Assembly: GCA_903861145.1 (NCBI GenBank)
Contig: CAIOTH010000113.1
Span: forward strand, 1 to 64,000
Length of the DNA stretch: 64,000 bases
Direction of reading: 5' to 3'
Source of the DNA: an uncultured Bacteroidota bacterium
Lineage (GTDB): Bacteria > Bacteroidota > Bacteroidia > Chitinophagales > LD1
Below the pieces are notes generated by a model. The model made no database searches. It saw only the letters and a list, made by a program, of their open reading frames with translations, and was not told where the DNA came from. The first letter of the stretch is position 1. Each line of letters opens with the position of its first letter. Positions 2,482-25,101 of this stretch are shown here, piece by piece. The translations under genes and the position numbers were made by a program.

Positions 2482-3378
2482 TTATTTTACCGGGCTATCA
2501 ATTATTTCAGGACGGTTCAAAAAGTAAAGATGCTTTTGTTGGCTAATATCGAAAGGTGGCTTCATCGCCTTTATTTCATAAAAGTCAACAGGGAAAATGT
2601 AGTCTTCCCAACTAATAATTTTTGCTATATCAAACAATTCCTGGAAATTATTTGATATAGTTAGGTGTTCAAACTCGCCCACCTTTATATCGGGAGTTTT
2701 TACAAAAAGTATAATAAAATTTAAGCGGCGAAGTGCGGCCAAAACCTCGTGCAAGTCGGCTACATGGTAACAATAAGCTTTGTCTATTTCCGCAACAATT
2801 TTGTCAATACGCTTTCCATCTTCAGCGTTGGGGTGTTCGCGCTTAAACAGGTCTTTAATGTATAAAACGCCACCGGGCTTTAGAACTTTGAGGGCCTTTT
2901 CAATCAATAAGGGCTTATTGTTTGAATGCCCAAACGATTCAAGAAAAACAACGCGGTCAAAAACTTCAGGGCCATATAATTCATCTATTAAATGGTAATC
3001 GCCTTGCGTGAAATGCGTTTTGCCAATAAGGGTTTGTGAGGGTTTGGCAGCGTTGGCCTTTTGAACCTGAAGTTCGGAAATCGTAACACCCTCCACATCC
3101 ACATTTAGCTTTGAGGCAAAGTATGAAGCGGGGCCACCTATGCCGCAGCCTGCGTCCAAAATTTTTTGTCCGTCCTTCAATTCTGCGTTTTGAATTGTGT
3201 AGTCCAGGTAATCGTAAACGTTGTTAGTTCTAAATGCTTGTATAATATCGCCGTATACTTCAATAAATTTATCGGTGTTTTTGTTATAAAACTCGCCCAC
3301 CTTTGCTGAGTTAAGAGCCACAGTTTTTGTTTGTGAGGGGCCTTGAGATTTAAACAGGTTAAGTATCTTCTTCAACAT
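2482..3378 (-). CDS. Class I SAM-dependent methyltransferase
   Basis: About 298 residues. Motif I is ILDAGCGIGG at residues 73-82, a classic Rossmann-fold SAM-binding loop. Acidic and hydrophobic strands characteristic of motifs II-IV follow (for example VLKPGGVLYIKDLF around 155-170). The closest recognisable type is the small-molecule/sterol/cyclopropane-type methyltransferase set rather than an RNA or protein one. I start it at ATG 3378; an in-frame TTG exists at 3390. It heads the three-gene minus-strand group with the two glycosyltransferases, so methylation of a sugar or lipid carrier is the natural guess. In ABC-exported O-antigens a terminal methyl group can act as a stop signal, but nothing here proves that role. 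Confidence 0.75.
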   Translation of the reverse strand: MLKKILNLFKSQGPSQTKTVALNSAKVGEFYNKNTDKFIEVYGDIIQAFRTNNVYDYLDYTIQNAELKDGQKILDAGCGIGGPASYFASKLNVDVEGVTISELQVQKANAAKPSQTLIGKTHFTQGDYHLIDELYGPEVFDRVVFLESFGHSNNKPLLIEKALKVLKPGGVLYIKDLFKREHPNAEDGKRIDKIVAEIDKAYCYHVADLHEVLAALRRLNFIILFVKTPDIKVGEFEHLTISNNFQELFDIAKIISWEDYIFPVDFYEIKAMKPPFDISQQKHLYFLNRPEIIDSPVK

Positions 3379-3593
3379 GATGTAAAACAAATTAAATACC
3401 CGGCAATAATAGTAAGAAGCGTATAACCTCCCGCATAAATTGTTTGAGCCGATTTGATGCGGAATTTAGTTAAGATATTTTTCCGCACCCTGATGATAAC
3501 TTGATACTCTTTTACAACCGAAGGTTGCCCGAAATTTTGTTATTTTGTATTGCTGATTTTAGCTAATAAAACAGCAGATTAAATTATGATTGA

Positions 3594-4424
3594 GTGAAGT
3601 TAGCTGAGCTAAAAAATCAAAGCGACGAGAGTTCGCTTAACAAGAATGGTTTTATTCTTTTCAGAAATTTTTTGACCGCCGAAGAGGTGGCTGAATTATT
3701 TGCGCTTTATAAAAGTTTGCACAAAAATGCTGACAGGGATAAGGGCATGTGGAACAGCTTAAACGATATTTTGCCCGAAGACGGGTTATATGTAAGCGAA
3801 AAAATTTTGGAAAAGCTTCGTCCCAAGCTGAATGAGTTATTTGTTTCGTACTGTGCGCCTATAGCTACTTTCATGTCGAAAAACTGTAATCCCAACAGCA
3901 CCTGCGACCTGCACCGGGATTTTAGCATACTTAACGAAAATGAATTTCAGTATCGCAACATTTGGATACCGTTGATTTCGACAACGCAAAACAATGGTGC
4001 ATTATATGTGTTACGCGGCAGCAATCATGTTTTTGATTATGTGCTGCCTTTGTTTAGCCCGTGGCCCTATAAAAACATGCAAAATGAACTGTTTCCAATG
4101 GTGGAAACCATTGACGCGGGGGCCGGCGATTTGGTGATATACCTGGATAAAACCCTGCACGGCTCGCACATCAATTTCTCTAACGATTCACGACCGGTTG
4201 TTCATTTTGGGGCTTTGCACCCGGATGTTGAATTGCAGTTTTACAACCTGGATGAAAAGAAGGAAAATGTAAGAGTTTATGCCGTGCCCTCGCGCTTTTA
4301 TTTTGATAAGGATTTTTCGCGTGTTGAAAGCAAATACCCTTTTGTTCGCGAATTTAAATTTGAACCTCCTCCCCTAAAAGTTGCCGAGGTTGTAGAAAAA
4401 CTAAAGGAATATAGCCCGGTTTAA
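3594..4424 (+). CDS. PhyH-family Fe(II)/2-oxoglutarate oxygenase 1
   Basis: 276 residues of phytanoyl-CoA-dioxygenase type, a double-stranded beta-helix oxygenase that uses Fe(II), O2 and 2-oxoglutarate. The metal triad is visible: His107 and Asp109 in LHRDF, and His189. Arg200, eleven residues after the distal His, is in the position that binds 2-oxoglutarate. The N-terminal NGFILFRNFL segment is typical of the family. The start is GTG at 3594; the nearby ATG 3586 runs into TGA after three codons, and the next in-frame ATG would cut off the family's N-terminal strand. It is convergent with the radical SAM gene (6 bases apart). It is the most divergent PhyH member here (HRD rather than HQD). 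Substrate unknown. Confidence 0.8.
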   Translation: MKLAELKNQSDESSLNKNGFILFRNFLTAEEVAELFALYKSLHKNADRDKGMWNSLNDILPEDGLYVSEKILEKLRPKLNELFVSYCAPIATFMSKNCNPNSTCDLHRDFSILNENEFQYRNIWIPLISTTQNNGALYVLRGSNHVFDYVLPLFSPWPYKNMQNELFPMVETIDAGAGDLVIYLDKTLHGSHINFSNDSRPVVHFGALHPDVELQFYNLDEKKENVRVYAVPSRFYFDKDFSRVESKYPFVREFKFEPPPLKVAEVVEKLKEYSPV

Positions 4425-4430
4425 TTAGTA

Positions 4431-5912
4431 TCAATACTCCTCTTCTGCAGTAACCTTGTTATCTAACAGCCGTTGACTTTGGTTAACTAAATATTCAACG
4501 GTGTTTCTCTTAAATGATTCAACTATAACGTTCGCCGGCCAACGACAAGCGTTTCGTAACAATAGTTCTTTGGCTTGTTGATCGGGACGAATATTTATAA
4601 CAACATTAAATTTACCCATAATATCATTGTAAGTCAATTCCTTTTCTTCCTCCGAATAGGCCAGGCCCGCAAGATGCGATTTTAGCTTGCTTTGAAAATA
4701 GGGGTATAGTTCTGTTTCAGATAAAAGTGCCACGCGGTTTTCTTCCTCTTTCTGTTGTATTTCTGCAGTTCTATCGGCTTCAGCCCATTGCTTAACCACT
4801 GCCGTAAAGTATTCATAATGCGCCACGTTTGCTTTTTGGATAACTGTTTGTGCACTGAATTTATGCCCGGCCAGGTATTCGTAAATTTCCTTAATCTGTT
4901 CCGCCGGTAAATTATCAAGGGCATATTTTTTAGGATACCATACTTTATGAAAAGTAGCTACGGCATTCATACCATTACAGAAGTTTACAAAATCAGGTAA
5001 TTCCCTCCAATTTTGCCGCATTACACAGGTAGAAATGCTAAACTTCATTTTCTTGTTTCTGCTATATTCCTGGAAATATTGGATGTTTTCCATTACCCTG
5101 TCAAAATTGGCATTCAATCGAATTGCCTCGTATGTCTCTTTTTTTAATGAGTCAAGCGATACCCCAATTTGGAAATTACCTCTACTCAAAAAGTCCTTAA
5201 TACGTGCATTCAAATAACTCCCGTTGGTTTGAACCATGATAACACATTTGGGGTTCTTTTCAATTATCATTTCCCAAATCTCATAGTTCATGTCAATAGC
5301 AAATGCTTCGCCCGAACCACTAAACCGTGTTTCGTGTAAATAAGGTATGAACTCTTCTAATTGCTTCAAAAAAGCTTTGTCGTAGGGACTGGAAAGCGCT
5401 GGTAATTTCTCCCTGTTTTTCCTGATGAGTGACGAGAACTCTCCTTTGCACATTACACACTCCAGGTTGCATGTGTTGGTCAACAAAAACTCCATCATGC
5501 TGGGATAAATACCTTGTTGCGGCATGTTGTCAAAGTGCCGGGCCCGAACCTCGTTATAACTTCCCATTCTTAAATCCGCTTCGCAAATCTGGCACCCATA
5601 ATTCAGGTTCCAGTCTTTCATATTTTGCCTTAGCGCTTCTGCTTTGGTACTATTCCATATTTCGGAAATACTTTGCTCGGGATACTTACCAATTGAAAAT
5701 TCAAGGTTATGGCAACAAACCCTAACATCGCCAGACTGTGAAAAAAGCATATTTACCGAGGGGGCATAGCAAAAGCTTTGACGGCTGGCACCAGCTAAAC
5801 GACTCTTATTATATTCTCTAATGTTAGTGGTTTCAATTTTACCCGGATTCAAAGGCATTGGCCCCTCCGATATAAATATTTGTTTAATCCTGTCAAGCAC
5901 ATTAATACTCAT
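4431..5912 (-). CDS. Radical SAM enzyme with N-terminal SPASM/twitch-like cysteine region
   Basis: 493 residues. The radical SAM cluster CxxxCxxC is Cys148, Cys152 and Cys155 (NTCNLECVMCKG), followed by a TIM-barrel-like region. A five-Cys region lies in front of it: FCYAPSV (Cys48), RVCCH (Cys66-67) and GCQIC (Cys107, Cys110). This resembles the auxiliary 4Fe-4S binding segment usually placed C-terminally in SPASM/twitch enzymes. The family cleaves SAM to a 5'-deoxyadenosyl radical. Members of this layout occur in glycan and natural-product loci with mostly unknown substrates. The neighbours are PhyH oxygenases, so two oxidative chemistries sit side by side. The substrate could be a sugar nucleotide, a carrier lipid or a peptide; I cannot tell. 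Confidence 0.75.
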   Translation of the reverse strand: MSINVLDRIKQIFISEGPMPLNPGKIETTNIREYNKSRLAGASRQSFCYAPSVNMLFSQSGDVRVCCHNLEFSIGKYPEQSISEIWNSTKAEALRQNMKDWNLNYGCQICEADLRMGSYNEVRARHFDNMPQQGIYPSMMEFLLTNTCNLECVMCKGEFSSLIRKNREKLPALSSPYDKAFLKQLEEFIPYLHETRFSGSGEAFAIDMNYEIWEMIIEKNPKCVIMVQTNGSYLNARIKDFLSRGNFQIGVSLDSLKKETYEAIRLNANFDRVMENIQYFQEYSRNKKMKFSISTCVMRQNWRELPDFVNFCNGMNAVATFHKVWYPKKYALDNLPAEQIKEIYEYLAGHKFSAQTVIQKANVAHYEYFTAVVKQWAEADRTAEIQQKEEENRVALLSETELYPYFQSKLKSHLAGLAYSEEEKELTYNDIMGKFNVVINIRPDQQAKELLLRNACRWPANVIVESFKRNTVEYLVNQSQRLLDNKVTAEEEY

Positions 5913-6037
5913 ACATCCATAAATTTACTTTACACCATTCGAAATTAAGCGATTTAAGCAACTTGCCCCGTGCAAATAAAGAGTGCCGCACAATGACCCG
6001 TGAACCTGCAAAACTTACCAATTTAGCCGATTAGTAC

Positions 6038-6045
6038 TATATTTG
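6038..6045 (+). promoter_or_regulatory. Candidate Bacteroidota -7 element
   Basis: TATATTTG matches the Bacteroidota -7 consensus TAnnTTTG. It lies only 7 bases before ATG 6053, so transcription would begin at or next to the start codon (leaderless). No convincing TTTG is found about 19 bases further upstream, so this is a weak call. Confidence 0.3.
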
Positions 6046-6052
6046 AAAAACG

Positions 6053-7033
6053 ATGTCGGGTAGTTTTTGGCGTAATCTTTTGGGTTCATCAATTAAGAGG
6101 GCCAGTTCATGGCAACCGGTTAAGCAGGTTGTGGTAAAGGATGCTATAATAGCCGATGCCCTGAATAATTTTGGCTATACAGTAGCGGGCAGACTAGAAG
6201 CGACGGCTCTTGAACAGCTCAAAAGCCTTTACCAATCGTTGCATAATTTTCAGAACCCACAGGGCGGTATGTTTTATAGCCTTTACTCTCATGACCTTGT
6301 TTATCGAAAGAAGGTTCACGAAGGCATAGGGCAAATTCTGCGCCCCATTTATGAGTCTCTTTTCACCAATTATAAATCGGTTCTAAACTCTTATATAGTT
6401 AAGGTTAGCGGACCGGAAAGTGAGTTTTCTTTGCACCAGGATTCAACCAGCCTGGATGAAATGAAATACTCATGCCTTAGTGTGTGGATACCATTACAAG
6501 ATACAGACCTGAATAATGGCTGCATGTGTGTAGTGCCGCACAGCCATAAAATGTTTAGCCCATATCGCGACATCTCGTTTCCGCAGCCGTTTGATGCCAT
6601 CAGCGATACAGTGCGCAAATACCTGAAACCCATTGTGCTAAAAGCAGGGGATATTTTACTTTTCGATAACCGGTTGGTTCACAATTCGGTGGTGAACTCT
6701 TCGGGACGTGACCGCGTAGTGGTTATGTCCGGCATCTTTCCGTCTGAGGCCAAAATCATCCGTTGCTACAAGGACACTTCAAAAGCAAATAACTCCATTG
6801 AAATTATTGAGCAGAAAGACGATTTTTTGCTAACCTTCGAAAACTTTTTTCATGACTGCACATGCCGCCCCGAAACCGGCCATAGTGTTGGGTTTGTTGA
6901 TTGGGATACTTCGGAGATGAGCAAAGAAATGTTTTTAAGCCTTTGTTCAAAATACGGGCTGAAGGAGTCGGATTACGAATTGGCAAACCATCTTCGGCAA
7001 GCCATTATAAGCGAGCCCGTGAAGGCCCATTGA
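6053..7033 (+). CDS. PhyH-family Fe(II)/2-oxoglutarate oxygenase 2
   Basis: 326 residues with an N-terminal extension of about 30 residues before the oxygenase core. His128 and Asp130 (SLHQD), distal His210 and Arg221 give a complete Fe(II)/2-oxoglutarate site. The core strand SVWIPLQDTDLNNG is the family's hallmark. A C-terminal tail of about 90 residues (260-326), also found in the later array members, may shape substrate binding. It is followed after 10 bases by the redoxin lipoprotein gene on the same strand. Substrate unknown; surface-glycan tailoring is inferred from the locus. Confidence 0.85.
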   Translation: MSGSFWRNLLGSSIKRASSWQPVKQVVVKDAIIADALNNFGYTVAGRLEATALEQLKSLYQSLHNFQNPQGGMFYSLYSHDLVYRKKVHEGIGQILRPIYESLFTNYKSVLNSYIVKVSGPESEFSLHQDSTSLDEMKYSCLSVWIPLQDTDLNNGCMCVVPHSHKMFSPYRDISFPQPFDAISDTVRKYLKPIVLKAGDILLFDNRLVHNSVVNSSGRDRVVVMSGIFPSEAKIIRCYKDTSKANNSIEIIEQKDDFLLTFENFFHDCTCRPETGHSVGFVDWDTSEMSKEMFLSLCSKYGLKESDYELANHLRQAIISEPVKAH

Positions 7034-7043
7034 AAATAGCACC

Positions 7044-7613
7044 ATGCAATTATTACCTCGCTACATTTGGTTGATTATAGTGGTGCCGTTGCTTCTATAC
7101 TCTTGCAAAGCAGGAAATAAGAACGGAACATATGAGAGCATTATTAAGCAGGCCGGGTTTTCGAATGAGAAAAAACTGCTGGTAGTTGTTTTTATAAATC
7201 CGGAATGCCCCATTACTCAAAAATATACGCGAACACTGAACGAGTTAAGCGATAGTTTGAACGAAAGCACGCTCTTTGTTGGCGTAATACCGGGTAAGCT
7301 TTTTAATGGCCGGAAGATTACAGACTTCAGAAAGGAATTTGCTTTTAAGATTCCGATAATTAAAGATGAGCAGTACGCTATTACTAAAACCCTTTCGGCA
7401 ACGGTTTACCCCGAAGTGGTTTTGTTAAACCAGAAGTCGGAAAAATTGTATAGCGGAAAAATAGATAATTGGTACGAAAGCGTTGGCAACTACCGGGCTG
7501 AACCTACCGAGTTTTATTTGAAAGAAGCGATTAAAGAGTACCTGCATAATGGAACCGTATCTACGAAGAGCACTAAAGCCGTGGGTTGTTTTATTAATTA
7601 TGAACGCAACTAG
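7044..7613 (+). CDS. Redoxin/thioredoxin-fold lipoprotein
   Basis: 189 residues. A hydrophobic N-terminus ends in a lipobox with Cys21 (LLYSC), so it is probably a lipoprotein facing the periplasm. The redoxin core shows VVVFINPECPITQKY with a single peroxidatic-type Cys55 followed by Pro, not CxxC. Near the end is VGCFI (Cys182), the motif that in many planctomycete and Bacteroidota proteins joins a redoxin domain to a cytochrome c/copper monooxygenase unit. Here that second unit is the separate gene at 10014. The last four bases overlap the convergent wzt gene. Likely role: electron or thiol partner of the downstream copper enzyme (inference). Confidence 0.7.
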   Translation: MQLLPRYIWLIIVVPLLLYSCKAGNKNGTYESIIKQAGFSNEKKLLVVVFINPECPITQKYTRTLNELSDSLNESTLFVGVIPGKLFNGRKITDFRKEFAFKIPIIKDEQYAITKTLSATVYPEVVLLNQKSEKLYSGKIDNWYESVGNYRAEPTEFYLKEAIKEYLHNGTVSTKSTKAVGCFINYERN

Positions 7614-8950
7614 TCCTTTTTTTCTACCGACCATTTAACGGCCGGCCTCACGGCCACCTTCATGTTATCGCCTACATAATCTATGTCGCCATCATTGCTT
7701 TTTAACCTGAAGTGAATGTTTTGTGGCAAAATAAACATGCCCATCTGGTTTCTTACCGAACCGATAGATGTTTCTTTCATGGGGTTTTTACCCACGTGAA
7801 GAACGGCATAGTAATTACCTGCTTTTAAAAACCTGGCAGGAATTTCACATGTAAACTCAATCATTCCCGTCTGGCCCTTTCCCTCTTGCGTAAAATCAAT
7901 CCTGTTTTCGTTGTTTAAAGGATGCATCAACAACACCGGTTCATTAAACATATCATGAAGCACCAGCATAATCACGATTGAGTTTTCCTTTTCCGGCTTA
8001 TCAACCAACACCTTCATTTGCACTATCTCCGATATATACAAATGCGCTATATTCCCCTGTTTATTCCCAACAAAAACACTTCGCACTTTAACAATTTCAT
8101 TGCCGGGTGCCTGGTCTGCATTCCATTCCTTTCGCACTCCATCATTGGCATTGTCAATAATGGCGGTAGCACTTCCTGTTTCAATCAACTTACTCTTTTG
8201 ATCTAATTCATAATGCTGTTTTTGGTCAGCATAGTACTCTGCAATCAAATCAAGCGGGGTGCCCATTTTTCTTATCTCCCCCTTGTCAAGCCAAAGGCAG
8301 CGGGTACTTAATTCAAGTATTTCGTTTTTACTGTGAGACACAAAAATGATTGACTTGCCCTTACTTTTTAATTCGCGAAAATGGTCATTGCACTTCATTC
8401 TGAAACTTTCATCTCCAACGGCTAATACCTCATCCAGAATCAAAATATCAGCATCGGTATTAAATGCCACCGAAAATGCCAGCCGCAAAAACATACCATT
8501 TGAGTAGTACTTTACCGGTTGGTCAAAAAAGTCATCTATACCGCTGAAGTTTCTGATTGTTTCTGTTTTCTCAGTAAATCTTGCTTTTGCAATATGGTTT
8601 AGCCGTAAGTGCATCAGGGTATTTTCGCGGCCCGTAAGTTCAGGATGAAAATTACTACCTATTTCAAGTATTGAAATTACACTGCCCCGTATTCTTATCT
8701 CACCTTCGGTGGGTTTGGTTACAGAGCTCAATATCTTAAGTAGCGTGCTTTTCCCCGAACCGTTACTACCTATTATGCCTATTATATCACCCTTCTGTAA
8801 ATCAAAGCTTACATTACGAAGGGCGTAGAATTCTGAGCCTTCGGTTTGGGCATGAACAGCCTTTCCGTTAGATATCTTATACCTTTTCGAAATATTGCTA
8901 ATAGAAATAACCGGAGGGTTATCAACCAGTGTCGGCGTCTCGTTTATCAT
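7610..8950 (-). CDS. wzt: Wzt-like ABC exporter ATPase with glycan-binding C-terminal domain
   Basis: 446 residues. Walker A GSNGSGKST is at 61-69, the signature region YSNGMFLRLAFS at 149-160, Walker B ILILDEVLAVGD at 169-180, and the switch His at 206. This order and the deviating signature are typical of Wzt/TagH polysaccharide exporters. A second domain of about 170 residues (roughly 275-445, beta-rich) corresponds to the Wzt carbohydrate-binding domain, which in known O-antigen systems recognises a terminal modification on the chain before export. The permease partner is the Wzm gene at 21397, 12 kb away. It overlaps the upstream PhyH gene by 4 bases, implying translational coupling. Confidence 0.9.
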   Translation of the reverse strand: MINETPTLVDNPPVISISNISKRYKISNGKAVHAQTEGSEFYALRNVSFDLQKGDIIGIIGSNGSGKSTLLKILSSVTKPTEGEIRIRGSVISILEIGSNFHPELTGRENTLMHLRLNHIAKARFTEKTETIRNFSGIDDFFDQPVKYYSNGMFLRLAFSVAFNTDADILILDEVLAVGDESFRMKCNDHFRELKSKGKSIIFVSHSKNEILELSTRCLWLDKGEIRKMGTPLDLIAEYYADQKQHYELDQKSKLIETGSATAIIDNANDGVRKEWNADQAPGNEIVKVRSVFVGNKQGNIAHLYISEIVQMKVLVDKPEKENSIVIMLVLHDMFNEPVLLMHPLNNENRIDFTQEGKGQTGMIEFTCEIPARFLKAGNYYAVLHVGKNPMKETSIGSVRNQMGMFILPQNIHFRLKSNDGDIDYVGDNMKVAVRPAVKWSVEKKD

Positions 8951-9768
8951 ACCAATACCTTAGCCAATAAATCTGCCGAAGTTACGACAGGGTGATTGTA
9001 ATGAATTTGTTCAAATACTTCTGCGTCCGGGTCGGCTCCGTTAGCTATTGTTTTCAGCTCCCGCAAAAATGCATCTTCATGCAAACAGAATGCCTTTACC
9101 ATTTTTTCTTGCTCATTATTTATGGCCTGAAAATACGTGAAGTTTGCACTTTCGGGCAAAACAATGGAGGTTACAATAGTGCGATGTCGATTACTGTTAT
9201 TGGGATAGGAGCCGTGAAAAACCGCCGGATGAAAAAGCAGCACATCTCCTTTTCTCATCGTTACCTTATGCAGTTTATTATCCGGCAATTCGGATGATGA
9301 AATGCGCGCCGTTGGCAAACTGAAACTTCGCAAATTATTGAACCAGGTATGGCTACGTGGTAGCAAAAATATGGCGCCATTATTTTCATCTACGTCGCAC
9401 AATGGCATCCACAGCGTAATTGAATGAAACTTATGTTCATCTGTATAACACCAATCCTGGTGCAATAATAGTTCGCTCGCGGTATTTGCCGGTTTTGTCA
9501 AAAATGATTCGTTAAGAGATTTGTAACCTGTTAGATACTCCTTGTAAAAGGGATTTAAATATCCCGTTATTTTATCCTTTATCCGTCTGTTATTCTCTAA
9601 ATCGTTAGCAATTAAGCTATAATAAAAATCAGTGCCAATACCCGAGAGATAGGGCTTAATAAACTGCTCTATCACATCTATCACATTTTCAAGGCCGGCC
9701 TCAATCACTACATATCCCAATTCGTTGAATTGTGCTTGATGAATGGAGGACTTGAAAATGTCTTTCAT
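8947..9768 (-). CDS. PhyH-family oxygenase 3, coupled to wzt
   Basis: 273 residues. His103 and Asp105 (LLHQDW), His185 and Arg196 complete the Fe(II)/2-oxoglutarate site, and SITLWMPLCDVDENNGA is the family core strand. It lacks the long C-terminal tail of the array members and ends soon after the fold. Its stop codon overlaps the wzt start (ATGA type), so the oxygenase and the export ATPase are probably made from one mRNA in a fixed ratio. This is the strongest contextual link in the window between a PhyH enzyme and glycan export. Confidence 0.85.
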   Translation of the reverse strand: MKDIFKSSIHQAQFNELGYVVIEAGLENVIDVIEQFIKPYLSGIGTDFYYSLIANDLENNRRIKDKITGYLNPFYKEYLTGYKSLNESFLTKPANTASELLLHQDWCYTDEHKFHSITLWMPLCDVDENNGAIFLLPRSHTWFNNLRSFSLPTARISSSELPDNKLHKVTMRKGDVLLFHPAVFHGSYPNNSNRHRTIVTSIVLPESANFTYFQAINNEQEKMVKAFCLHEDAFLRELKTIANGADPDAEVFEQIHYNHPVVTSADLLAKVLV

Positions 9769-9778
9769 AAATTAATAA

Positions 9779-9928
9779 GTAAACCTGGTGCCATTGGCAA
9801 ACCTTGAGCTGAACGGGTTGAAAGATACATCAGTTGCCGAAATTTTTAGTGAGTATGAGTTTTTAATTTTAGGAAGACGAAATCCGGAAGTCGCGTCTTT
9901 GTTAGAGCAACATAGTTGGTTTTATTAG
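9779..9928 (+). pseudogene. Possible 3' remnant of a coding sequence
   Basis: An open frame of 49 codons closed by TAG at 9926. It has no ATG, only GTG 9788 or TTG 9794. The amino-acid content looks like the tail of a real globular protein (for example EIFSEYEFLILGRRNPEV and LLEQHSWFY) rather than random translation. It sits exactly between the inverted wzt-PhyH pair and the cytochrome gene, so it could be the end of a gene destroyed when that pair was inserted. It could also be a short functional ORF or chance. I do not recognise the family. Confidence 0.25.
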
Positions 9929-9957
9929 CAATAAATGTTTCGGTTTTGCTGAACTGT

Positions 9958-9965
9958 TAAGTTTG
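9958..9965 (+). promoter_or_regulatory. Candidate -7 element for the cytochrome/monooxygenase gene
   Basis: TAAGTTTG fits TAnnTTTG and lies 48 bases before ATG 10014, leaving a leader of about 40 bases. A TTTC at 9938-9941, 16 bases upstream, is an imperfect -33 element. If real, the gene has its own promoter and is not dependent on the redoxin gene 2.4 kb away. Confidence 0.35.
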
Positions 9966-10013
9966 CGCTACCTATGCATGCAATAAAGAATTTCGTTGCT
10001 TTAATTTGCTTTA

Positions 10014-11387
10014 ATGGCCTCGCCCGCATTTTTCAATTTTTCTGTCAGCCGCCATTTAAATTGCTTTCGCGCAATAACAAAGTTTGCCTTTTTAATTGTA
10101 TTGGCAACTTTATTGTACTCCTGCAACCCCGATAAACGCGGACCTTCAGGCCGCCCTAACTCCGGCCAAGTCGATACATCAATATCCTATTACCATCAAA
10201 TAGCGGCAATTATTGCCACACGCTGCTTGAGTTGCCACAGTGAAAAGGGACCGGGCCCAATAAATCTTGCCTCGTACGCCAACGTAAGTTTTAACGCTGA
10301 AATGATAAGGTACGTAATAAACCGGCGCATTATGCCACCATGGTTGGCAGATGAGCATGGCTGGGATTTTGCAAACAAAAGAGTGCTTTCAAAACAGGAA
10401 ATTGGAACCATTAACAAATGGATTGATAATGGCTTGTATAAGGGAGATAGTATAGCTGGTGTTTCCCAGGCAAAACGTTTAATTACTGAAGGTCCGAAAC
10501 CGGATATAGTATTACACATGGATAAGCATTTCTTTATTAAGGGAGATAATAAAGAAAGTTTTCAAAAGGCTACTTTCAAATTCGAAAGCGATTCATTATT
10601 CCCGGTATGCGCAGTTGAAATTGTGTCAAAGCAACTGAAGGTAGCTCATCATGCCTCGTACGCCATAAAAGGTATAAGTAAATTCAGCCGCTCGGCTGAA
10701 GAGTTTTTATTGGGCAACGATTTATTCCATGATTCAAGTGTTGTAATGATTGGCGGTTGGGCGCCCGGTGCCGGGGCAACAAGGTTTCCTGAGGGATTTG
10801 GTTTCTTCCTTCCTAAAAAGGGCGAGGTTGATTTAGAGTTTCATTACGGCCCATCGCCGGTTGATTTAACCGACAGTATTGAGGTGGATATTTATACGGC
10901 AAGAAAACCTATTACGCGCAGCTGCACCTTTATAAGTATTTCTAATGGTGATAGTATATGCCGTTTGAGCCCTCCGCTTTTCGAAATTCAGCCCAATAGC
11001 TTTCAAAAATTTACGCTGCAGTACACGGTAAAAAAGGATTTTACTGTTTTGGCAGTTGGGCCACATATGCATTACCTGGGCAAAAGTTATCATGCATCCG
11101 TAATTGCACCCGACGGACAGGAGTCTTCAATCATTAATTTAGCTCACTGGAATTTTAGCTGGCAGGACCAGTATCTGTGCCAAACATTCCATCATATCGA
11201 AAAAGGTTCTGTATTAAAAGTGGAGGCTGAGTTTGATAACACTAAAGATAACTTGCGAAACCCTAGTAATCCGCCAAAACTGGTACGTTCCGGATGGGAA
11301 AGCAAGAGCGAAATGCTTGTTTTTATTTTGCTTGTAACCCAATACAAACTCGGTGACGAAACTATAAGATGGAATAGCGAATTTTAG
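10014..11387 (+). CDS. Cytochrome c / PHM-type copper monooxygenase lipoprotein
   Basis: 457 residues. A membrane-anchoring N-terminus has a lipobox Cys37 (LLYSC). The haem site is Cys71xxCys74His75, with RIMPPW (Met106) as likely axial ligand. The rest matches copper type II ascorbate-dependent monooxygenases: His212-His213 and His277 correspond to the CuH site, and His351, His353 and Met434 to the CuM site of peptidylglycine hydroxylating monooxygenase. The 64-residue spacing from His213 to His277 equals that of the rat enzyme (108 to 172). Related bacterial proteins carry an N-terminal redoxin; here that part is the gene at 7044. Likely an extracytoplasmic C-H oxidising enzyme with a built-in electron carrier; substrate unknown. 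Confidence 0.75.
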   Translation: MASPAFFNFSVSRHLNCFRAITKFAFLIVLATLLYSCNPDKRGPSGRPNSGQVDTSISYYHQIAAIIATRCLSCHSEKGPGPINLASYANVSFNAEMIRYVINRRIMPPWLADEHGWDFANKRVLSKQEIGTINKWIDNGLYKGDSIAGVSQAKRLITEGPKPDIVLHMDKHFFIKGDNKESFQKATFKFESDSLFPVCAVEIVSKQLKVAHHASYAIKGISKFSRSAEEFLLGNDLFHDSSVVMIGGWAPGAGATRFPEGFGFFLPKKGEVDLEFHYGPSPVDLTDSIEVDIYTARKPITRSCTFISISNGDSICRLSPPLFEIQPNSFQKFTLQYTVKKDFTVLAVGPHMHYLGKSYHASVIAPDGQESSIINLAHWNFSWQDQYLCQTFHHIEKGSVLKVEAEFDNTKDNLRNPSNPPKLVRSGWESKSEMLVFILLVTQYKLGDETIRWNSEF

Positions 11388-11389
11388 AG

Positions 11390-12538
11390 TTATTGTATTG
11401 CTTTGTCGTTTATAAGACGCGTATATAATCCATAGTCGCCATAGTCGTAACGGGCATCGGTGCTCAAAATAATTACCAGGTCAAATTGTCCCAGTGCGCT
11501 TTTCAAGTCAATGGTTGCAAGATCGTTGCCCTCTTTCATAATATCCGAAAAATCTTTTGCTGACCGCATATAAAACCAATATCTGCTGGCAGAATCAAAA
11601 ATTTGTATGGGTAGTTTTGTAAAGCCAAATACAAAAGTGTAGCTATCGCCAATAAAGAGAATTTTGGGCTTGCGAATATCGCCTGAATTTGCGTTTATGC
11701 AAACCGGTGCCGGTGTGGCCAAAGTATCCATTGGCCTGATCCTAAATATATTCATTGCTACAGCAAGGTCGTCATCAGGATATTTAGGTTCGCTTGAAAT
11801 AGTTACATGGCTTAGGTCTATCTTTAAAGGAGCAAATTGCAGAATAGAGGCCACCTTTTTGTAGATAGTATCCAATGCCACCGCAGCGCCATATGTGGTC
11901 CAGTGTAACCCCTGTTTAGGAAATAAAGGATAGGATGATGTTGTAGCTATTTTATCAAAGTACGTGGATAGGTTAATGTAATCCACTTGATGTGCCTCGA
12001 GCCGGTTACCCAATAACTCGTATCCGGTAATACTTCTTTTCAATGCCTTGTACTCATAGGGTAAATAAACCTGGTCAAAGCTGGTTTTACCGGGAGCCAT
12101 AACATATAACAACGGTATATTTCGCGCCGCAAGATATTTCTGCAACATAACAATTGTATCTGTTCTTCGACACAGTAATGCCGAATCAAAAGTTTGGCCT
12201 ATAAAACTTTTCATGCTTTCATCTAAAAAAAGATACCCGCCTTTACCATAAACAGTTGTTCCATGCGCAAGGTGGAAACACGAATAATCAATTTGATTTC
12301 TTAGGCGTACCAATAATGGCCTAAACCCCGCAGTTGCGTTAAACCAACTTACAACCGAATCCTGGTAGCTGCTTTCAAGAAAGGCTTTAAATGTTGGTTC
12401 GGGCAAAGCCGAAGCATCGGGAACTTTTACAAGGGCAAAGCTTGCTTCGGATATAAACTGAAATCTCCTTTGCAATGCCGGCACCAAAAGAAGTAGCACG
12501 AAAAGGCCCACCAGGAAATATTTATACTTTGTTCCCAT
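11390..12538 (-). CDS. AlgX/AlgJ-like SGNH acyltransferase-type protein
   Basis: 382 residues with one N-terminal membrane segment (about 8-22) and an extracytoplasmic body. GDSYTF with Ser299 is the SGNH nucleophile block, and GLHWTTYG with His212 lies ahead of it, the circularly arranged order seen in AlgJ/AlgX alginate O-acetylation proteins. In AlgX an Asp stands two residues before the His; here that position is Gly210, so the triad may use another acid. The gene directly follows the MBOAT gene (3 bases apart), the usual pairing in which MBOAT passes acyl groups across the membrane and the SGNH partner places them on the glycan. Confidence 0.75.
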   Translation of the reverse strand: MGTKYKYFLVGLFVLLLLVPALQRRFQFISEASFALVKVPDASALPEPTFKAFLESSYQDSVVSWFNATAGFRPLLVRLRNQIDYSCFHLAHGTTVYGKGGYLFLDESMKSFIGQTFDSALLCRRTDTIVMLQKYLAARNIPLLYVMAPGKTSFDQVYLPYEYKALKRSITGYELLGNRLEAHQVDYINLSTYFDKIATTSSYPLFPKQGLHWTTYGAAVALDTIYKKVASILQFAPLKIDLSHVTISSEPKYPDDDLAVAMNIFRIRPMDTLATPAPVCINANSGDIRKPKILFIGDSYTFVFGFTKLPIQIFDSASRYWFYMRSAKDFSDIMKEGNDLATIDLKSALGQFDLVIILSTDARYDYGDYGLYTRLINDKAIQ

Positions 12539-21396: not shown

Positions 21397-22218
21397 ATGA
21401 ACGACGAGGTTAAATTAATCCGCCCCGGAACAACATCTTTAAATGCTTATATCAATAGCATTTGGAACTCACGTGCGCTTATCTACACGTTTGCCTGGCA
21501 AGAACTTAAAGTGCAATACTCACAAACCATGCTTGGCGTTTTATGGGCAGTACTAAGGCCCATGATTATACTGCTCATTTTTACATTAATTTTTGGCAGG
21601 CTTATAAAGGTACCTGGTATTACGATGCCATATGCACTGTTTGCATTCTCCGGCCTAATGGCCTGGAACTACTTCAATTTTATTGTGAACAATGGCAGCA
21701 GCGTTATTATAAACAACCAAAACCTCATTCGCAAGTTTTATTTTCCCAAAGTCATTTTATTGCTTTCAAAGTCGCTGGTGGGTTTGGTAGAGTTCTTTAT
21801 TTCCCTGGCGCTTCTGTTTGCCCTAATGGCAATTTTACGGTTTGAATTTACTCTGCACATAGCATGGTTTCTCTTTTTTATCATGTTAAACCTACTTTCG
21901 GGCTTAACCGTTGCCTTGTGGCTAAGCGCCTTAAGTGTGCGATATCGTGATATCAACCAGTTTGTTTTACCACTTATCGGTTTTGTTATTTGGCTGACCC
22001 CGGTTTTTTACCCCGTTACCTTAATTCCAAGCGCTTATTCCTTTGTTCTCTTTTTCAATCCTTTATCGGGTATCATACAGGGCTATCGGTTTGCGCTTTT
22101 AGGTGGCGAATTTCTACCCATTCAGTACTTTTACACCTTTGCCATAGTTGGGCTGCTTTTTTTTATTGGCTTATTGATTTTCATCAGGGTTGAAGACGAT
22201 ATGCCAGACTACCTTTAA
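21397..22218 (+). CDS. wzm: Wzm-like ABC polysaccharide export permease
   Basis: 273 residues with six membrane segments and a short N-terminal amphipathic stretch. FAWQELKVQYSQTMLGVLWAVLRP is the coupling-helix region typical of ABC-2 type O-antigen and teichoic-acid export permeases. It is the natural partner of the Wzt ATPase at 7610, though the two genes are 12 kb apart and on opposite strands, whereas they are usually adjacent. The next gene, 38 bases on, starts the PhyH array, which ties the array to export. Confidence 0.88.
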   Translation: MNDEVKLIRPGTTSLNAYINSIWNSRALIYTFAWQELKVQYSQTMLGVLWAVLRPMIILLIFTLIFGRLIKVPGITMPYALFAFSGLMAWNYFNFIVNNGSSVIINNQNLIRKFYFPKVILLLSKSLVGLVEFFISLALLFALMAILRFEFTLHIAWFLFFIMLNLLSGLTVALWLSALSVRYRDINQFVLPLIGFVIWLTPVFYPVTLIPSAYSFVLFFNPLSGIIQGYRFALLGGEFLPIQYFYTFAIVGLLFFIGLLIFIRVEDDMPDYL

Positions 22219-23177: not shown

Positions 23178-23196
23178 CACCAATAAACAGCAATTG

Positions 23197-25101
23197 ATGA
23201 CACCGATATTTAATGATACCAGGTTACAGCAGCAGTTTGAAAAAGATGGATTTGTAGTTATCCCGTTTTTGAATGAGGCAGAAGCAAATAAGCTTTCGTC
23301 GTTTTTTTATGAGTTGCATAATAACGTGCCCGAAAACTTTTACTCAACAACTTTTAATGCCAGCCCCGAATTTAAGGGTCGAATAAACGAGGAGACAAAC
23401 AATGTTTTCGGCAGCAAGATTGATGGACTACTTACCGGCATTAAAAAGTTGGGAAGCAGTTTTTTATGCAAGGCCCCGGGCGCAGGTGGTAAAATGCCGG
23501 TTCACCAGGATTGGACGGTGGTTGACGAATCGAAATTTTGCTCAGTTACCATTTGGATACCTTTGGTTGATACGAACGAAAAGAATGGCGCCATTAGGGT
23601 ATTGTGCGGAAGCCACAAATTTACCGACACGTTACGTGCACCTACTTTACCCAGCGAATACGCTGCCTTGCAAGATGAGATTTGGAACGAAATGGAACTG
23701 CTCCCGATGAAAGCGGGTGAGGCTTTTATTTTTAACCACGCCTTATTACACGCATCCTCCGTAAATACAACTGATAAAGAAAGGCTGGCCATTACCTACG
23801 GTGTTATACCCACCGAGGCACGCTTAATGCTTTACCACTTAAATGAAAATAAAAAGCTCGAAAAATACCTGATGCCCGATGATATGTTTCAACGGTACCA
23901 TAACATTGGGCAGCGCCCTGAATTTGGTGAGCGGGTAGAGGAGTTTGCTTACGAAGTAAAGCCCATGAGCAGTTTAAAGCTGCATTCGCTTATCAATAAA
24001 GAAATAAGGAGCCGCAAGATGAAGCCCTTATTTAAGGATGCCGAAGTTCAAAAGTTTTTTGATGCCGAAGGTTATGCCAAAGTGCCGGTTTTGAATAGTG
24101 AAGAGGTGCAGCTATTGCTTGATTACTATAAAGGCCTGCAACTAAAAGATGAGGCCGGTTTTGGTTTTCACATCAGTATGGATGTAAAGGACAAAACCCT
24201 CGTGCCAAAAATTTTGGAGAAGATTTACGAAGTTGCTTTGCCTAAGGTAAGTGCTCATTTTGAAAATGCTAAACCGTTTGTAGGTAGCTTCGTAATAAAA
24301 GAACCAAACCCGATGGGCGTTGTGCCGGTGCACCAGGATTGGAGTTTTGTAGAAGACGAAGAACAGCATTGTTCGGTTACTTGTTGGGTGCCATTAGTTG
24401 ATACCAATCTCGATAATGGAGCCTTAGGTGTAGTTAGGGGCAGCCATAACTTTTTTCGCAGTCACCGGCCATCGCCATCACCACAAGTGCCATCACCCAT
24501 TTCCGAACACATGTTTACTATCTTCCCTTATCTTAAATTGGTGGAGATGAAGGCTGGTGAAGCCTTGATATTTGATAACCGTACTTTCCATGGTTCTCCT
24601 CCCAACTCGTCCGATTCTCCACGTATTGCGTTTGGAATTGGCTTTACACAAAACGATGCACAGCTTTGCCATTTTTATTTAAAGCCCGATGGCAATAAAA
24701 ATAAAATACTGAAGTATAAAATTGATAGCTCGTTTTTCTTTAAATACGAAAACCCGGGCCTGGCTAAAATGTACGACAAGGGTGAGTTAATTGAGGGATA
24801 CGATATGGTTGAAGAATTGCCTTTTGTGCTTCCAAAATTTACTGCCGATGAACTGGTAGACCTGATAAAAGAAAACGGTAATGAGTTTAACGTGCCTATG
24901 TGCGAAAAGCTGGCCAAGCTGTTTAGTTATAATATGGATGGCAGCAAAAAAGAAGAAGCCCAAAACAAACTGGAAGAAGTTAAGCAGGTAATTGAAGAGC
25001 CTAACGAGCCTTATGTGTGGGTTGACGACCGTAGCTTCTTCCAAAAATATACCCCGTTAAATGTGGTTCGCGAAATCAAAAAAAGACTTCAGTCCAATTA
25101 A
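23197..25101 (+). CDS. Tandem double-domain PhyH oxygenase (5 and 6)
   Basis: 634 residues from ATG 23197 (a TTG directly in front is ignored). Two complete PhyH domains stand head to tail. Domain 1 (about 5-265) has His103, Asp105, His185 and Arg196. Domain 2 (about 275-525) has His379, Asp381, His465 and Arg476. Both retain the full Fe(II)/2-oxoglutarate set. A charged segment of about 100 residues follows domain 2. The residues around the metal differ (HQDWTVVDESK against HQDWSFVEDEE), so the halves are old duplicates and may act on different positions. Start lies 17 bases after the preceding stop; operonic. Confidence 0.88.
   Translation: MTPIFNDTRLQQQFEKDGFVVIPFLNEAEANKLSSFFYELHNNVPENFYSTTFNASPEFKGRINEETNNVFGSKIDGLLTGIKKLGSSFLCKAPGAGGKMPVHQDWTVVDESKFCSVTIWIPLVDTNEKNGAIRVLCGSHKFTDTLRAPTLPSEYAALQDEIWNEMELLPMKAGEAFIFNHALLHASSVNTTDKERLAITYGVIPTEARLMLYHLNENKKLEKYLMPDDMFQRYHNIGQRPEFGERVEEFAYEVKPMSSLKLHSLINKEIRSRKMKPLFKDAEVQKFFDAEGYAKVPVLNSEEVQLLLDYYKGLQLKDEAGFGFHISMDVKDKTLVPKILEKIYEVALPKVSAHFENAKPFVGSFVIKEPNPMGVVPVHQDWSFVEDEEQHCSVTCWVPLVDTNLDNGALGVVRGSHNFFRSHRPSPSPQVPSPISEHMFTIFPYLKLVEMKAGEALIFDNRTFHGSPPNSSDSPRIAFGIGFTQNDAQLCHFYLKPDGNKNKILKYKIDSSFFFKYENPGLAKMYDKGELIEGYDMVEELPFVLPKFTADELVDLIKENGNEFNVPMCEKLAKLFSYNMDGSKKEEAQNKLEEVKQVIEEPNEPYVWVDDRSFFQKYTPLNVVREIKKRLQSN

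Follow-up and report, generated by a model that had tools for sequence, protein, structure and literature searches.

Gene Content of the Locus

The window analysed here is a 64,000-nucleotide stretch of DNA from an uncultured Bacteroidota bacterium (positions 1 to 64,000 of contig CAIOTH010000113.1, assembly GCA_903861145.1). Our subject is two of its genes, one for a redoxin and one for a copper monooxygenase with a heme-c domain, which face the same way and have a wzt-like gene and a PhyH gene between them on the opposite strand. The reading that we favour, and consider somewhat better than an even bet, is that the two genes form a two-gene module rather than a broken fusion, and that they are separated here by a wzt–PhyH pair that is probably resident.

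The redoxin gene (7044..7613, plus strand) is an open reading frame (ORF) for a putative thioredoxin-like lipoprotein with ECPIT, containing Cys55, and a C-terminal GCFI, containing Cys182. The copper gene (10014..11387, plus strand) was assigned from its ORF, its conserved residues and a structural model to a heme-c/type-2 copper monooxygenase lipoprotein of the PHM/DBH fold. On the minus strand lie a wzt-like gene for a polysaccharide ABC-transporter ATPase (7610..8950; Pfam ABC_tran, E 1.8e-23), whose top NCBIfam matches are of the Wzt/TagH type yet fall under their cut-offs, and a gene for a PhyH-type 2-oxoglutarate-Fe(II) oxygenase (8947..9768; Pfam PhyH, E 1.6e-22). Together with a divergent intergenic region of 245 bases (9769..10013), these two make up the 2,400 bases from the redoxin stop at 7613 to the copper-gene start at 10014. 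The ORF calls agree with the original prediction on all four genes, their strands and coordinates, and on the roughly 2.4 kb of opposite-strand wzt and PhyH between two co-oriented genes.

The 3' ends of the redoxin and wzt ORFs overlap by 4 bases, PhyH and wzt also overlap by 4 bases, and strands alternate across 3594-11387. Another PhyH-type oxygenase gene (6053..7033, plus strand; Pfam PhyH, E 5.1e-20) ends 10 bases before the redoxin gene on the same strand and is therefore its probable transcript partner. Upstream of the copper gene, TAAGTTTG at 9958 on the plus strand is the single site resembling the Bacteroidota −7 motif; since that motif alone is expected by chance 0.117 times per 245 bases on one strand, the site is a weak sign of a promoter belonging to the copper gene itself.

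The Redoxin and the Search for a Fused Form

The redoxin falls under the Pfam cut-off (Redoxin, 19.8 vs 26.6 bits). Its AlphaFold model (predicted local distance difference test score, pLDDT, 91.6) finds its best PDB matches in 2ywo, 2cvb, 3u5r and 2ywi, and it is thus predicted to have a thioredoxin-like fold with an active-site cysteine. A CxxC motif is absent from the window protein, which reads CPIT with Thr at position 58; across alignment A4, Cys55 and Cys182 are present in 44/44 rows and Cys at 58 in 28/44. The redoxin and the copper protein each carry an N-terminal signal of their own with LLYSC.

The original prediction had the redoxin ending with VGCFI and took this segment for the joint at which fused relatives run on into the cytochrome. 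The segment is there, while the actual terminus in the translation is VGCFINYERN, and the idea of a joint found no support, as the same segment lies near the C-terminus of ordinary unfused redoxins. GC-x-I occurs in all 15 separate redoxins of alignment A2, near the C-terminus except in L070 (about 25 residues further); these include L071, a redoxin with no adjoining copper gene. It occurs in 2cvb as well. Since it is ordinary in unfused redoxins and Cys182 is invariant, GC-x-I/L is more plausibly a functional element of the redoxin than a linker.

Neither could the fused relatives be confirmed: scans of Bacteroidota loci turned up no single open frame with both redoxin and copper domains. In a search of the phylum (395 genomes), open frames among the matches listed were at most 442 amino acids long. 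A redoxin match of genome G229 is listed in a 624-amino-acid open frame with an internal TAG; it was rejected as a fusion, as loci L126 and L109 show redoxin and copper protein as separate ORFs. Fused redoxin–cytochrome–copper forms presumably exist in phyla other than the Bacteroidota covered here; their architecture, with all domains in one frame, is not that of the window, where there are two ORFs.

The Copper Protein

The copper protein also lies below Pfam cut-offs, with Cu2_monoox_C at 19 vs 23 bits (21 in a second scan) and Cytochrome_CBB3 at 17 vs 27; the Cu2_monoox_C cut-off was passed by the other five of the six matches in the window's own genome. A phmmer search for relatives of solved structure found none. 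The profile of alignment A3, however, matches human DBH (E 6.1e-5), the aligned part taking in the HY and HxH segments. For the AlphaFold model (pLDDT 85.7), PHM/DBH entries fill the top 31 ranks in Foldseek and the top 26 in VIA-align (Z 19.8 to 15.3, the next row 8.7), with PHM 6ala_C at Z 19.8 over 244 residues and DBH 4zel_A at Z 19.7 over 266 residues. The protein is accordingly predicted to have the PHM fold, and its PHM/DBH type is supported by the alignments, the profile and the fold matches.

All six copper ligands that had been named for it (H212, H213, H277, H351, H353 and M434) are present, and are conserved in 18/18 rows of A1 and 44/44 rows of A3; outside the HY and HxH segments their equivalence to PHM/DBH goes by order and spacing. 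C71-C74-H75 (CxxCH) and M107 are likewise found in 44/44 rows of A3, a combination of heme-c motif and conserved Met from which heme binding is predicted. The branch of the window protein is long, at 2.26 against a median of 0.3 and, in another tree, 2.13 against 0.53.

Arrangement of the Pair in Relatives

With the window copper protein alone as query, genome_contigs yielded no relative, and the A1 profile was used instead; the best 80 of its 584 relatives were kept, making 78 loci. Plasmid records were searched as well and gave no match. In six-frame profile scans, 58 of the 78 loci have a redoxin directly upstream of the copper gene and co-oriented with it; an ORF-only pass, in which overlapped ORFs were dropped, gave 54. 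The other 20 comprise one locus in swapped order (L199) and 19 without redoxin in the locus, four of which (L178, L204, L207 and L211) start at the locus edge.

Approached from the redoxin, the copper gene is directly downstream in 35/40 loci. The remaining five are convergent (L051, the same place as L072), at a contig edge (L053), copper-less (L054), interrupted (L128) or swapped (L132). At L128, about 0.8 kb and a small ORF, which by eye looks MazF-like, lie between the redoxin and a partial copper match; this place (1360-2886) is possibly another pair split by insertion. Approached from the copper gene, the pair is adjacent in 26/29 loci, the misses being L007 (the second tandem copy of G027, with the redoxin further upstream), L112 (swapped) and L118 (no redoxin in the flank). 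These 40 and 29 loci are a subset of the search rows, and the samples partly overlap. A further 17 "order-relatives" loci, 16 of them adjacent, had been picked because their redoxin and copper hits lay near each other and were not relied on; L071 and L073 (G024, unpaired) were left out of the six-frame scans. A redoxin matched in 19 genomes other than the window's; in 16 of these it adjoins a copper match, with G022 convergent, G049 at a contig edge and G024 with none beside it. Other rearranged pairs are the convergent L072 and the swapped L112, L132 and L199.

Within the window's own genus, a redoxin of this type occurs at high score in 4 of 18 genomes (196 to 166 bits, the next being 104), and in the three others (G001, G004 and G014) it stands beside a copper gene. 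The module is widespread in Bacteroidota, redoxin first and commonly adjacent. The adjacent genes without an inserted pair, for which the original prediction had suggested a search, are therefore the usual state, and its "natural split enzyme" is borne out in the sense of separate, commonly adjacent genes; lineages in which both genes are always unlinked were looked for and not found. A literature search limited to open-licence PubMed Central papers yielded no description of such a two-gene module.

Some variants were also seen. In L062 (G027, 3345-8554), a single redoxin gene has three diverged, co-oriented copper genes after it; two of these, like the window's copper gene, were flagged for their long branches. 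In the window's genus, the copper domain is also found N-terminal in ORFs of 790-1242 amino acids (L076, 13752-17243; L079, L080, L081, L083, L086 and L092).

At L147, TonB-plug SusC-like receptor and SusD genes precede the pair and FG-GAP/ASPIC and PAP2 genes directly follow it (7262-11928; Pfam, at L147 alone); the PAP2 member could be vanadium-haloperoxidase-like. ORFs of like length, judged by length only, stand in the same places at many other Chitinophagaceae and Pedobacter loci. The L147 neighbours, with these like-length ORFs elsewhere, point to a module that acts at the cell surface.

The wzt–PhyH Pair as Probable Resident DNA

The question of which block is the intruder was approached through 14 stretches of 4 to 20 kb read around same-family wzt or PhyH homologues. 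Six of them (L265-L268, L271 and L272) carry a PhyH homologue upstream of wzt and co-oriented with it, and L277 is a weaker seventh case; in those six the distance is 1 to 7 kb, mostly occupied by other PhyH-type genes. In G025, some 25 kb of a single contig separate the wzt and PhyH homologues (L269 and L270). The wzt homologues in relatives are 38-50% identical to the window's. L265 and L267 continue, on the same strand as wzt and PhyH, with homologues of window genes 2482, 19205 and 26, and the window's minus-strand genes 8947, 7610, 2482, 1275 and 26 run in an order comparable to that of the relatives, differing in that 4431 lies between and 1275 stands where the relatives have the 19205 homologue. 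At E 1e-12, neither a redoxin nor a copper homologue is found in any of the 14 stretches.

Since the relatives share these clusters in a comparable order, the arrangement is most simply read as resident polysaccharide-cluster DNA, wzt and PhyH included, in which the redoxin gene, with its PhyH gene, and the copper gene would be plus-strand islands. That wzt and PhyH were themselves the inserted pair, as the original prediction had it, is doubtful, as wzt and a PhyH homologue cluster together in relatives that have neither redoxin nor copper gene there. Nine families of direct repeats and twelve inverted pairs were found around the joints, all short and imperfect; among these, none pairs the two joints as expected of an insertion.

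The window setting also holds UbiA, an ABC-2 permease and several PhyH genes (Pfam). The ABC-2 permease gene (wzm-like; 21397-22218) is about 12 kb from wzt and on the other strand; such permease and wzt genes are usually neighbours. PhyH-type oxygenases have multiplied, both in the window (3594-27832) and elsewhere in its genome, with 12 matches in the window genome and up to 18 in a congener (E 1e-15), and one 635-amino-acid ORF (23194-25101) has two PhyH stretches.

Weighing the Explanations

A fused redoxin–cytochrome–copper gene broken by insertion would account for the gene order and strand. However, the redoxin C-terminus is complete and of the unfused type, the copper protein has a complete N-terminal signal of its own, and a fused frame was absent from the Bacteroidota loci scanned, so that we give this explanation hardly any credence. 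The notion that the two genes are decaying, functionless remnants fares little better and is judged very improbable: relaxed selection could lie behind the long copper branch, but the frames are intact, the metal, heme and two invariant cysteine positions are kept, and both models are confident (pLDDT 91.6 and 85.7).

Whether the two genes came together is a closer matter. An adjacent redoxin–copper cassette may have arrived and later been split by wzt–PhyH insertion or by rearrangement, a course of events that is compatible with the two-gene module and to which we assign a little less than an even chance. Adjacency is the usual state in relatives, both window genes retain strand and order, and L128, with its small ORF and partial copper match, possibly went a similar way; on the other side stand the co-occurrence of wzt and a PhyH homologue in the relatives' clusters, the short imperfect repeats around the joints and trees without a shared history. 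The redoxin gene, with the upstream PhyH, and the copper gene could instead have been added separately at a gene-exchange hotspot, in which case they may not work together. The alternating strands of 3594-11387, the tight spacing of the redoxin gene with a PhyH gene and not with the copper gene, and the weak discordance of the two trees would all suit this explanation, which we rate as rather less likely than not, but the redoxin type is present in only four of 18 genus genomes, the other three have it paired with a copper gene, and a chance closeness of 2.4 kb is unlikely.

The preferred reading, a two-gene module with its members separated by probably resident DNA, has several points weighing against it, and one of them is the history of the two proteins. 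Between the window's redoxin and copper distances to 70 pairs the correlation is weak (Spearman coefficient 0.15, p 0.23), whereas the other rows have a median of 0.44, and maximum-likelihood trees leave the window's diverged proteins unplaced. A larger redoxin tree suggests L055 as the window's neighbour (SH-aLRT, the Shimodaira–Hasegawa-like approximate likelihood-ratio test, 82), but in the approximately unbiased (AU) test the copper data reject that neighbour (p-AU 0.00014), as well as a grouping of the window with the six-row group around L055 (p 3e-9). Rejection is marginal for the window with its best-scoring relatives, L056 and L143 (p 0.0435), and a grouping with the copper genes of G027 is not rejected (p 0.0525 for the first, 0.254 for the second and 0.093 for all three). 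Of the four groupings put to the redoxin data, not one is rejected (p 0.37-0.62); for kinship with G027, a member of the same family, p is 0.616. The two proteins thus have no clear shared history in these data. In addition, a redoxin is missing from the surroundings of 19 of the 78 copper genes and hence is not required in cis in every case. The long copper branch makes an altered function possible. A lipobox-like segment was found, with a crude pattern, in only 14/44 copper and 13/44 redoxin rows, and lipoprotein anchoring is therefore not general among the aligned relatives. Finally, the proposals on electron route, copper loading and substrate, and on any contact that the two proteins make, are inferred.

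Proposed Mechanism and Significance

As we picture it, the redoxin gene would yield an exported thioredoxin-like lipoprotein and the copper gene an exported lipoprotein in which a heme-c domain precedes a two-copper monooxygenase domain of the PHM/DBH type, and the two would meet after export, the module working as two proteins. The enzyme would carry out an O2-dependent hydroxylation outside the cytoplasm, its coppers receiving electrons through its own heme c from an exported donor, not from free ascorbate. In PHM and DBH, which hydroxylate an aliphatic C-H bond, one copper binds O2, the other feeds in an electron, and ascorbate reduces both. Since the window polypeptide carries a domain with the heme-c motif ahead of its PHM fold, direct electron entry is a likely difference from PHM/DBH. 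The invariant cysteines of the redoxin suggest that Cys55 and Cys182 act in copper delivery or in thiol reduction for the enzyme. Neither frame is broken and the key residues are kept, so the module in the window is probably still functional in its two-protein form.

The UbiA, ABC-2 permease and PhyH setting of the window would fit a surface polymer as the target. The fuller proposal, that a self-sufficient PHM-type monooxygenase, drawing electrons from its own heme c and relying on a dedicated redoxin (Cys55/Cys182) for copper loading or for reduction, has been recruited to modify the surface polysaccharide or glycolipid of a PhyH-rich cluster, appears unlikely. If the assignments hold, a bacterial PHM/DBH enzyme that carries its own heme c and has a redoxin encoded nearby would be a different solution to the supply of electrons to two distant coppers, and the natural arrangements of the pair (adjacent, swapped, convergent and separated) are ready tests of the need for the redoxin. 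The module itself merits study more than the separation does, the window being one unusual arrangement of it.

Comparison with Known Systems

A close counterpart is the pair at L147, in Flavihumibacter cheonanensis, which consists of the same two proteins as in the window, there adjacent. Identity to the window's two proteins is 24-37% over the aligned sets of relatives. Pairs of the L147 type lie near SusC/SusD-like genes, whereas the window pair sits in a polysaccharide-export setting.

The redoxin shares its fold with 2cvb and 2ywo (Thermus), SMc02350 (3u5r) and 2ywi (Geobacillus), at template modelling scores (TM-scores) of 0.64-0.70 by query length, and 2cvb has a similar GC-x-I C-terminal segment (GCTI). 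It differs from proteins of the 2cvb/2ywo type in its single active-site Cys (ECPIT) and its lipobox-like segment.

In animals, PHM and DBH are classic ascorbate-dependent enzymes. The predicted fold and the six ligand residues are common to them and the window copper protein, and in both the window protein (213 to 277) and PHM (108 to 172, numbers that come from the titles of matched structure entries) the copper His that follows the His-His pair comes 64 residues after the second member of that pair, although identity in the structural alignments is 14-20%. Unlike PHM and DBH, the window protein is bacterial and putatively exported, has an N-terminal heme-c domain and is encoded near a redoxin gene.

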